Assembly: GCF_029946185.1 (NCBI RefSeq)
Contig: NZ_JAQSEA010000123.1
Coordinates: 1 to 48,353, forward strand
Direction: 5' to 3'
DNA: 48,353 nucleotides
Source: Prosthecobacter sp.
GTDB taxonomy: Bacteria; Verrucomicrobiota; Verrucomicrobiia; Verrucomicrobiales; Verrucomicrobiaceae
Below are positions 23,258 to 28,997 of this stretch, one piece after another (within the stretch, counting starts at the first letter, position 1; each line of letters starts with the position of its first letter). The notes beneath the pieces are model-generated. The model had not been told where the DNA came from and searched no databases. It saw nothing but the letters and a program-made list of their open reading frames with translations. The position numbers were made by a program, and so were the translations under genes.

Positions 23258-24304
23258 GTGTTTGCTATGACCCATCCGAGCATTGCTGACAATGATCCGC
23301 CACGCCGCAGCCGAGCCCGGCGGCGGGAGGCCATGATCAACGCCATTGCCACGATTCTCGGCTGCATGGCCTTGGTGGTCATGATCGCCACAGTCGTGCG
23401 GGTCGTCATGATCAAGCTCTGGGAGTCCGCCCGGGTCAATCCGGAGTACGCACAGTCAATGTATGAAAAGGATCAGGGGCAGCACTGGTCAGGCGATACC
23501 AAGGAGCATCCAGCCCTTCTGGGCAGTCCCTCAGAAGTCCACCCATCAACAGACGTCCCCAACCGTGAGATCCCAGCCTCTGGCGTTTCCCAGTCTAGTT
23601 CACTGAAACTCATGGCTGTCGGCACGCCAAGCCCCACTGCCATAGAAGACATCGAGAGTAAACGGCCCAAAATTGAACACGCTCTCCGGGGGTTTTATGA
23701 GGCCACCAGCTTGGACCAGCGGCTCGCTTTTGCCCGTGACCCCCAGCGCGTGCGCGCTTTGATGGAGAACTACGATCGCAGGCATCCGCAAGTGCCACTC
23801 GAGTGGAAAAATCTTGGCTGGATTCTGCCAGTGGAGGAGGAGGGTTACCGTTTCGGATATGCCCAGGCCGTCTTTACCAATGCCGAGCCTGTCAGCCTCA
23901 TCATCGAAGAACTGGTGGACGGCACCTTCCGGGTGGACTGGGAAAGCTCAGTGCGTTACGGCGAAATCGACTGGGAGGAATTCATCAAAACCCAGCCCTC
24001 AGCACCCACGCTCTTGCGAGTCATCGCCTCTAGGCCTCAGAACATACCACCAGAGGCCCCTCCCATGGGCAGCGACATGCTCGAAATCACGCATCCTGAC
24101 GATAATGACGTCGTCTATGCCTACTTTGATCGTAAAGATCCTAAATTTCAACCACTTCTCCAGCAACTGCAGAGCGGAAACTGGAAAGATGTCCCTCTAA
24201 CTTTACGACTTTGCTTTCCAGGCCCACCGGGCAGCGGCAAAAACGCACGGATCGCAGATGTCGAAGGCAAGGGATGGCTGATATTGCATGGAACCAGGAG
24301 CTAG
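23258..24304 (+). CDS. membrane-anchored protein of unknown function
   Basis: The protein has 348 residues from a GTG at 23258, or 345 from the ATG at 23267 (MTHPSIADND). A basic N-terminus (RRSRARRREA) precedes one membrane helix (about residues 27-50, INAIATILGCMALVVMIATV). Then comes a low-complexity spacer and a soluble domain (from ~residue 130) with many aromatic and acidic residues, such as GTFRVDWESSVRYGEIDWEE. I do not recognise the family. The start lies directly behind tRNA-Thr, so processing of the tRNA 3' end from a common transcript would leave an almost leaderless mRNA. The next gene follows after three bases. Confidence 0.7.
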   Translation: MFAMTHPSIADNDPPRRSRARRREAMINAIATILGCMALVVMIATVVRVVMIKLWESARVNPEYAQSMYEKDQGQHWSGDTKEHPALLGSPSEVHPSTDVPNREIPASGVSQSSSLKLMAVGTPSPTAIEDIESKRPKIEHALRGFYEATSLDQRLAFARDPQRVRALMENYDRRHPQVPLEWKNLGWILPVEEEGYRFGYAQAVFTNAEPVSLIIEELVDGTFRVDWESSVRYGEIDWEEFIKTQPSAPTLLRVIASRPQNIPPEAPPMGSDMLEITHPDDNDVVYAYFDRKDPKFQPLLQQLQSGNWKDVPLTLRLCFPGPPGSGKNARIADVEGKGWLILHGTRS

Positions 24305-24307
24305 ACT

Positions 24308-25687
24308 GTGAGCAAACCTACACGAAATACGAAAAAGGCGGCCCAAGGTAAGGCCAGGCCTGTTGCGACAAAATCCAAAAAAACCGTGGCCTCCAAAACC
24401 AAAGCCAAACCCGCGCCAGCCAAGAAAGCGCTGGCACAGAAGAAACCGGTTCCCGCCAAGAAGCCTGCGGCTAAAAAGCCCGCGCCTACCAAGGCCGCCC
24501 CCAAGAAGGTGGTCAAAAAGTCTCTTCCCCCAAAGGCTGTGGTGAAGAAACCTGCGGCCAAAGCTCCCGCGGCAAAAACCAAACCCGTCGCGGTGAAGCC
24601 CGCTGCGGCACCCACCAAGTCTGCTACAAAACCGGTCGCTAAAGCGGCTAAACCGGCCGCCGCAGTCAAAACGCCTGCGCCCCCTGCCCCAGCGAAAGCG
24701 GCTCCCGCCGTCAAGGCTCCTGCAGCCGCTGCGCCAGCCAAAAAGCCTGCTGCACCACCTGCGGAAGTGGCAGCACCCGCCACCGCCCCTGTGGTCGCCG
24801 AGGTCAAAAAAGCTCCTTCACAGCCGCTGCCGCCTCCCGGCCCCACCAAGTCTGGCGCATTGTTTTACGACTCCCACATGCACACCCCGCTGTGCAAGCA
24901 TGCCTGGGGCGAGCCGGAAGAGTACGCCCAGCAGGCCGTCAAGGCGGGCCTGAAAGGCATCATCTTCACCTGCCACTGCCCCATGCCCAACGGCTTCTGG
25001 CCCACGGTGCGCATGTCGGAAAGTGAATTCGAAATCTACCTCGCGCTCGTGCAGCGCGCCGCCGACGCCTTCAAGGGCAAGCTCGACGTCCGCCTCGGCA
25101 TTGAGAGCGAATACTACCCCGGCTGTGAGGAATACATCGCCGCCCTGCACAAGCGCGCCGACTTCCATTACGTGCTCGGTGCCGTCCACTGGCAGGCCAA
25201 GGAATACCTCAATAAGTACGAGACCGGCACCATCGAAAACTTCCGCCGCACCTACTTCGAGCATCTCGCCAAGTCGGCTGAGTCCGGCCTCTACGACTGC
25301 GTGGCCCACCCCGATCTGGTGAAAAACTACCATCCGGACTCCTGGTGCTTTGCCATTGTCAAAAATACGGTCTCCGGTGCCCTCGATCGCATCGCGGCCA
25401 CCGGCGTGGCCATGGAACTCAACACTTCCGGCCTCAACAAGAGCTACTCCGAAATGAACCCGGGCAATGAAATGCTGCGCATGATGGCGGACCGCAAGAT
25501 CCCCATCGTCCTCGGATCGGACTCGCATAAGGCTGTTCGCGTCGGTGAGCATTTCGTCACCGCCTTGAACCACCTCACTGAAGCAGGCTACGAAAACGTC
25601 AGCTACTTCCTCAACCGCCAGCGCATTGATCTCCCGATCTCCGAGGTGCTAGCCAGTCTGAAGAAAGCCGCTGACCACAACGCCTAA
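24308..25687 (+). CDS. PHP-domain phosphatase (HisJ-like) with histone-H1-like N-terminal tail
   Basis: The 459-residue protein is in two parts. Residues 1-181 are a Lys/Ala/Pro repeat (such as PAKKALAQKKPVPAKKPAAK), strongly basic and without predicted fold, like the C-terminal tail of eukaryotic histone H1 or bacterial Hc1/AlgP-type proteins. Residues 183-459 are a PHP metallo-phosphoesterase with DSHMHTPLCKHAWG, FTCHCPM, GIESEYYPG, GAVHW, AHPDLV and GSDSHK metal-binding motifs, closest in outline to histidinol-phosphatase HisJ/HisK. The tail could anchor the enzyme to DNA, RNA or polyphosphate. The GTG start at 24308, three bases after the preceding gene, includes the tail; an alternative start after the tail is not obvious. 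The PHP call is secure; the substrate and the tail's role are unknown. Confidence 0.88.
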   Translation: MSKPTRNTKKAAQGKARPVATKSKKTVASKTKAKPAPAKKALAQKKPVPAKKPAAKKPAPTKAAPKKVVKKSLPPKAVVKKPAAKAPAAKTKPVAVKPAAAPTKSATKPVAKAAKPAAAVKTPAPPAPAKAAPAVKAPAAAAPAKKPAAPPAEVAAPATAPVVAEVKKAPSQPLPPPGPTKSGALFYDSHMHTPLCKHAWGEPEEYAQQAVKAGLKGIIFTCHCPMPNGFWPTVRMSESEFEIYLALVQRAADAFKGKLDVRLGIESEYYPGCEEYIAALHKRADFHYVLGAVHWQAKEYLNKYETGTIENFRRTYFEHLAKSAESGLYDCVAHPDLVKNYHPDSWCFAIVKNTVSGALDRIAATGVAMELNTSGLNKSYSEMNPGNEMLRMMADRKIPIVLGSDSHKAVRVGEHFVTALNHLTEAGYENVSYFLNRQRIDLPISEVLASLKKAADHNA

Positions 25688-25696
25688 TACTGCCCC

Positions 25697-26173
25697 ATGG
25701 TACGCACAGGCATCGGTTACGACGTCCACCCCTTTGAAGCAGGCCGCCCCCTCGTCCTCGGCGGTGTCACCATCCCGCATTCGCATGGCCTCAAAGGCCA
25801 TTCGGATGCGGATGTGCTCAGTCACGCCATCGCTGACGCCGTGCTCGGCGCTCTTGGCGAGCCCGACATCGGCCACTGGTTTCCCCCCAGTGATCCCACC
25901 ATCGAGGGCATCTGCAGCCTCAGAATCCTCGAAAAGTGCGCCCAGATCGCCGCAGAGAAAGGCATGCGCATTGAGAACGTGGACTCCTCCCTCATCGCTG
26001 AAGCCCCCAAGGTGAATCCCCACGCCGCCGCGATGAAAAAGAACATCGCCGCCGCTCTCGGCATCCAGCCAGATCAGGTCGGTGTCAAAGCCACCACCAA
26101 CGAACGCCTAGGCTTCGTCGGTCGGGAGGAAGGCATCGCCGCCATGGCCGTCGCCTGCCTCAGCAAAATCTGA
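25697..26173 (+). CDS. ispF: 2-C-methyl-D-erythritol 2,4-cyclodiphosphate synthase
   Basis: IspF cyclises CDP-methylerythritol 2-phosphate to the cyclodiphosphate in the non-mevalonate isoprenoid pathway. The 158-residue sequence has the usual length and motifs: GIGYDVHPF (zinc ligands Asp and His), LKGHSDADVLSHAI, the DIGHWFPPSD loop, and KATTNERLGFVGREEGIAA near the C-terminus. It begins nine bases after the PHP gene, so it may be cotranscribed. No other isoprenoid gene is nearby. Confidence 0.97.
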   Translation: MVRTGIGYDVHPFEAGRPLVLGGVTIPHSHGLKGHSDADVLSHAIADAVLGALGEPDIGHWFPPSDPTIEGICSLRILEKCAQIAAEKGMRIENVDSSLIAEAPKVNPHAAAMKKNIAAALGIQPDQVGVKATTNERLGFVGREEGIAAMAVACLSKI

Positions 26174-28337: not shown

Positions 28338-28997
28338 ATGAGCGCCGCCGTTCTCGAAGCCGTCCTGCAATCCCCGGACCTGCCGGAGATTATTCAGCAC
28401 GCCCTGGGTGTATTGGCCGCCGAGCGCAAGCTGCGAGAGAAGTTTTACGCGGACATCACGCCGGAGCACAAATGGGAGTTCATTCAGGGAGAGATCATCA
28501 TGCACTCCCCCGCGCTCAACCGGCACCTGCAGGCCAACCAGGCCCTTTTCAAGCTCATGGAAAGCCATGTGAGCACCCAGCGGCTGGGAACTGTGCTGAT
28601 CGAAAAAGCCATGACCAGTTTCCCGCGCAACGACTACGAGCCAGACCTGATGTTTTTCGGCCTAAGCAAAATGGGCCTCATCTCGCCGGACACGCTCAGG
28701 TTTCCCATCCCCGACCTCATTGTCGAAGTGCTCTCTCCCTCGACAGAACATCGCGACCGCGGCATCAAGTTTGAAGACTACGCGCTGCATGGTGTCGGCG
28801 AATATTGGATCGTGGACACCGTCGCGGAGACCGTGGAGCTTTACCGCCTTGAGGGCAGCAGCTATCCGCCCGTGGCGGCTCAAACAGACGGGCTTCTTAG
28901 CAGCGCAGTCATCCCCGGATTCGAAATGCCCGTACGGGCCATTTTTGATTCTGCAGTCAACGCCGAGGCCATGCGCCGCATTTGGAATCAGGAATGA
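28338..28997 (+). CDS. Uma2-family (DUF820) restriction-endonuclease-fold protein
   Basis: The 219-residue protein carries the Uma2 PD-(D/E)xK core: ITPEHKWEFIQGEIIMHSPA, YEPDLMFF, PDLIVEVLSPST and EHRDRGIKFEDYA with EYWIVD. Uma2 genes are abundant in Cyanobacteria, Planctomycetes and Verrucomicrobia and are of unknown function, sometimes mobile. Here it sits inside the MoxR-DUF58-BatA-like operon, 42 bases after DUF58, and its stop overlaps the BatA-like start (ATGA). It is not a usual member of that operon, so it is probably a late insertion that has become coupled. Confidence 0.9.
   Translation: MSAAVLEAVLQSPDLPEIIQHALGVLAAERKLREKFYADITPEHKWEFIQGEIIMHSPALNRHLQANQALFKLMESHVSTQRLGTVLIEKAMTSFPRNDYEPDLMFFGLSKMGLISPDTLRFPIPDLIVEVLSPSTEHRDRGIKFEDYALHGVGEYWIVDTVAETVELYRLEGSSYPPVAAQTDGLLSSAVIPGFEMPVRAIFDSAVNAEAMRRIWNQE

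Follow-up and report, generated by a model that had tools for sequence, protein, structure and literature searches.

A Lys/Ala/Pro-rich, histone H1-like N-terminal tail on a PHP phosphoesterase annotated as histidinol-phosphatase in Prosthecobacter

The Prosthecobacter DNA analyzed here (48,353 nucleotides; called the window) carries at 24308-25687 on the + strand a single gene, one open reading frame of 459 amino acids starting with GTG. Its product joins a long, strongly basic Lys/Ala/Pro-rich tail to a complete PHP domain. By analogy with the tails of AlgP and PhaF, the protein may be a PHP phosphoesterase that acts on a substrate other than histidinol phosphate and is tethered to a polyanion by its tail, a reading to which we give about even odds (roughly 0.5). 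The gene, its parts and its flanking genes are as follows.

23258-24304, + strand: up348, the upstream gene, encoding a predicted membrane-anchored protein with no Pfam match
24296-24300, + strand: Shine-Dalgarno-like AGGAG in the sequence, 7 nt 5' of the GTG and inside the 3' end of up348 (TAG at 24302-24304)
24308-24853, + strand: Lys/Ala/Pro-rich N-terminal tail, residues 1-182, predicted to be disordered (composition, dN/dS, pLDDT, and presence in all complete tailed orthologues)
24854-25687, + strand: HisJ-clade PHP phosphoesterase domain (Pfam, NCBIfam, alignment, AlphaFold, Foldseek)
25697-26173, + strand: ispF, directly downstream, a neighbour only in the closest relatives

A start of the GTG-AGC-AAA type (VSK or VSN) is found in every tailed orthologue whose start lies on its contig, and nearly all tailed orthologues have an AGGAG- or GGAG-like site ahead of it. 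No conserved internal start codon exists among the tailed orthologues compared. This recurrent GTG with a ribosome site and the lack of a conserved internal start indicate that the tail is part of the protein, and on this comparative evidence the GTG at 24308 is the true start. That translation begins within or after the tail, so that no fusion protein is made, is barely credible. Tailless orthologues do start a few residues ahead of the domain, and the window has an in-frame TTG near the domain start. However, the GTG and its Shine-Dalgarno-like site recur clade-wide, whereas the TTG lacks a ribosome site and is replaced in relatives by CTG, CTC, CTT, TTA or ATT, and the tail's dN/dS of about 0.2 shows that it is translated. 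The sequence-only reading, which placed a Lys/Ala/Pro tail in front of a complete PHP domain, is thus borne out by the reading frame, the Pfam match and the conserved start, and the start after the tail that it named as a refutation fails on the conserved GTG, the unconserved internal starts and the same dN/dS. An antisense open reading frame of 182 amino acids (24301-24849, - strand) was dismissed as a mirror of the Lys/Ala/Pro codons in the tail.

The scan of named genomes gave 80 loci, a few of them unparsed by motif; a match at L109 contains a stop and was left out of the analysis. Half of the loci (40 of 80) have 72-97% identity and belong to records titled Prosthecobacter, Brevifollis or Verrucomicrobiaceae, together with a few metagenome-assembled genomes titled Akkermansia muciniphila. 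All of these with an unmasked start on the contig have the tail, opening with VSK or VSN. Loci at or below 61% identity start 5-30 residues before the domain and have no basic tail. In whole genomes, family f1 has the tailed form in three genera (g1, g21 and g22) and the tailless one in g15-g20; the other families examined have the tailless form. Judged by open-frame length, the rest of the phylum sample contained no tailed form, and no complete orthologue within the tailed clade lacks the tail. A FastTree phylogeny groups all 42 tailed leaves in a single clade, whose local support is only 0.60. Most simply, these sequences suggest that the tail arose by a single gain, ahead of an older enzyme, in the common ancestor of Prosthecobacter and its two sister genera. 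The distribution among Verrucomicrobiota, which had been proposed as a check, is therefore that of a fusion kept throughout Prosthecobacter and two neighbouring genera and absent from the orthologues examined elsewhere in the order. Strain-specific slippage of the repeat, the other stated way for the idea to fail, does not fit a tail that is lineage-wide and under purifying selection.

No free H1-like gene from which the tail could descend was seen next to the PHP gene; at L111, L113 and L115 the gene immediately before a tailless PHP gene is up348. These are the few tailless loci with up348; most tailed loci have it ahead of the PHP gene, to which it is probably translationally coupled. The neighbours ispF, gatA/gatC and MoxR were dismissed as functional partners, since they lie beside the gene in close relatives only, and no order-wide conserved neighbour of the PHP gene was found. 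The window also contains, at 28338-28997, a gene for a putative endonuclease of the Uma2 family, flanked by those for DUF58 and BatA in a MoxR/VWA cluster.

The 187 residues from the start up to the PHP aspartate D188 include K42, R2, D0, E2, A55 and P37, with a net charge of +42. The first half is basic (+31), and the second is richer in Ala and Pro and weakly basic (+11). No other 100-residue stretch in the window's long open frames has at least 15 Lys, and over stretches of this length the K+A+P fraction is 0.80 in the tail vs 0.50 in the next best. The 37 tails compared are 146 to 242 residues long, with a net charge that stays within +35 to +54 (CV 0.10); most of the charge lies in the first half, the second half having about +7 to +18. 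Sequence conservation of the tail is low, with many indels. Between close relatives, dN/dS is 0.11-0.31 (about 0.2) for the tail vs 0.03-0.10 for the domain, so that by this measure the tail evolves under purifying selection. Charge held while length varies, together with the low dN/dS, points to selection on the tail's bulk charge rather than its exact sequence. AlphaFold gives the tail pLDDT values of 37-54 and no secondary structure, and the PHP domain values mostly of 82-96; the tail is predicted to be intrinsically disordered. A profile search with the tail matched only itself and noise, composition bias making such searches uninformative.

The Pfam PHP match (residues 188-374) covers profile positions 1-164 of 164, that is, a complete domain. 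The protein passes the cut-offs of NCBIfam PRK07328, the "histidinol-phosphatase" subfamily (229.8 bits; cut-off 202), and of TIGR01856 (154.2 bits; cut-off 90.2). It does not reach that of the HisJ equivalog PRK08123 (107.9 bits; cut-off 133), a model that discriminates poorly here, as the genome's second HisJ-type protein scores 76.6. This genome encodes two such proteins: A, which is the tailed one, and B, on another contig (G000:C59). The closest fold to A found by Foldseek is 2yxo, a histidinol phosphatase (E 1.1e-24). The HxH, His, Glu, His, His and DxH ligands that mark the HisJ/HisK clade are all present in A; assigned from the family pattern, they are H190, H192, H223, E266, H294, H334, D405 and H407. 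In domain numbering these are H8, H10, H41, E84, H112, H152, D223 and H225, and they are invariant in A and B.

A resembles the Thermus thermophilus histidinol phosphatase (2yxo/2yz5/2z4g) and other HisJ/HisK PHP enzymes in fold and in the eight metal-ligand positions, with 32% identity. It differs from the T. thermophilus enzyme by Asp40 to Cys, Tyr202 to Asn, a short loop after H112, the insertion of W164 and the N-terminal extension of 182 residues. Asp40 and Tyr202 are common to B and the T. thermophilus enzyme, both of which also keep the loop; the replacements (D40C and Y202N; C222 and N384 in the full protein), the shortened loop and the extra Trp164 are diagnostic of the A-type. Cys40 and Asn202 are each found in 88 of 88 A sequences, where B has Asp (18 of 19) and Tyr (19 of 19). 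Tailed and tailless A share the replacements, so the enzyme's divergence predates the tail. By inference from sequence, C40, N202 and the accompanying changes would contact the substrate or adjoin the active site.

A and B are both of the PHP/HisJ family, with a similar domain size and a match to the same subfamily model. They have 33% identity, and B, unlike A, is tailless, keeps the Asp and Tyr motif residues and swaps with HisN, which is reported in Verrucomicrobia (PMC5516325). Among 124 Verrucomicrobiales genomes at least 90% complete, 117 have a HisJ-type match: 30 have A only, 54 have A and B, 33 have B only, and 7 have neither. Strong HisN matches (taken as those from about 167 bits upwards; one is a fragment at a contig edge, and only one genome exceeds the NCBI cut-off of 275) occur in 29 of the 30 A-only genomes vs 0 of the 87 with B, not counting an ambiguous 169.9-bit partial match in G039, which has B. 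The exclusion has a Fisher p of 1e-26, and of 6e-10 within family f3 alone, the genomes in both cases being related. It is phylogenetically clustered, and about two independent cases can be claimed (g17 in f1; f3). The almost perfect mutual exclusion of B and HisN across Verrucomicrobiales is a clean non-orthologous displacement. B (L043:4733-6378) overlaps or adjoins folP, the gene for dihydropteroate synthase, and the pairing recurs in several further genera; B might have a role in folate synthesis, in addition to or in place of one in histidine synthesis.

Of the 124 genomes, 117 have hisD. A persists in three genomes that lack hisD, namely G053 and the tailed G105 and G124, which agrees with another function for A but may reflect assembly gaps. 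Where the histidine pathway exists, A is not the sole candidate histidinol-phosphatase; B or HisN is nearly always found alongside. On the simplest reading, the histidinol-phosphatase would be B or HisN, with another function for A. That A is an ordinary histidinol-phosphatase as annotated, its tail being incidental, is distinctly unlikely, even though it passes the PRK07328 cut-off, has a histidinol phosphatase as its nearest solved structure, keeps all metal ligands and scores about as well as B against the T. thermophilus enzyme (154 vs 144 bits). Against it stand the missed HisJ equivalog cut-off, the near-constant presence of B or HisN, the 33 B-bearing genomes from which the A-type is missing, and the loss in A of Asp40, Tyr202 and the loop that B and T. 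thermophilus keep. On these sequence data the A-type would not be a dedicated histidinol-phosphatase, and its annotation is probably wrong on the substrate. A substrate other than histidinol phosphate had been suggested because of the tail; the suggestion gains from the HisN/B swap and the diagnostic residues, but the tail is not its basis, since tailless orthologues share these residues.

It is reported that the KPAA domain of AlgP, with a net charge of +55 and 25 perfect KPAA units, is DNA-binding and found on polyphosphate granules, and that of PhaF (+35) is thought to tether granules to the nucleoid (PMC9239181). The tail here resembles these C-terminal, histone H1-like domains of Pseudomonas in being a long, predictedly disordered, Lys/Ala/Pro-dominated and strongly cationic stretch of similar charge, with no fixed sequence and with a length that varies between relatives. 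It lacks their C-terminal position and tandem KPAA units: the tail is N-terminal, its repeats are irregular with few perfect KPAA, and binding would be by analogy. It also sits on a metal-dependent enzyme, while theirs sit on a helical or a granule-coating protein.

Other tailed proteins of this genome come from a pattern search and form an incomplete tally. The ribosomal silencing factor RsfS (L068:1939-2418, G000:C294) ends in a Lys/Ala/Pro tail (PKAVKKAPAKKAAVKK...), which is likewise a basic addition to a conserved domain but is C-terminal, about 30-40 residues long and on a ribosome-binding protein. A 212-amino-acid protein divergent from rsmH (mraW) (L066:373-1011, G000:C234) matches no Pfam family and has a long Lys/Ala/Pro stretch at its N-terminus. 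The frame of pyruvate phosphate dikinase (L067:1869-4949, G000:C306) continues into AKKAAKKAPAKKAA repeats, partly masked with N, which are either fused to the enzyme or belong to a small H1-like gene of their own that starts at an internal ATG. Similar tails on other proteins make such tails a habit of the lineage, not special to the PHP enzyme. In that light, the tail may have no specific partner: as a solubility or entropic bristle, or as an expansion of low complexity that is tolerated, it would stay basic through mutation bias and because hydrophobic or acidic residues are weakly selected against. The tails on unrelated proteins (RsfS and the protein by rsmH), the low sequence conservation and the many indels agree with this, and selection on charge would equally fit a solubility or entropic role. 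We consider it rather unlikely, however, because Lys content and net charge are held clade-wide at a dN/dS of about 0.2 and no complete orthologue of the clade has lost the tail.

In the preferred reading, the tail would tether the enzyme electrostatically, in the manner of the AlgP and PhaF KPAA tails, to nucleoid DNA, to RNA/ribosomes or to polyphosphate, and its Ala/Pro-rich second half would serve as a spacer. The tail's composition and charge, and the same analogy, make it plausible that the enzyme is directed to nucleic acid or polyphosphate; a polyphosphate kinase is encoded in the genome, making polyphosphate a possible partner. The A-type would hydrolyse another small or nucleic-acid-linked phosphate by the usual three-metal PHP chemistry, and the histidinol-phosphatase job would be done by B here and by HisN in other lineages. 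A bolder version, in which a new PHP subfamily with Cys for the motif Asp acts on nucleic-acid- or polyphosphate-borne phosphate and is tethered to the nucleoid or RNA in Prosthecobacter by its H1-like tail, is a long shot. RNA 5'-end processing, as in the PHP enzyme RNase AM, was considered and has no direct support.

The protein combines, in a new way, a tail type and a fold that are both known, and its substrate is probably mis-annotated. It clearly exemplifies the addition of an H1-like polycation to a catalytic enzyme, maintained through a lineage, for which close tailless orthologues serve as natural controls. As the "histidinol-phosphatase" clade to which it belongs is widely annotated in Verrucomicrobiales and probably has another substrate, many automatic annotations would be affected.
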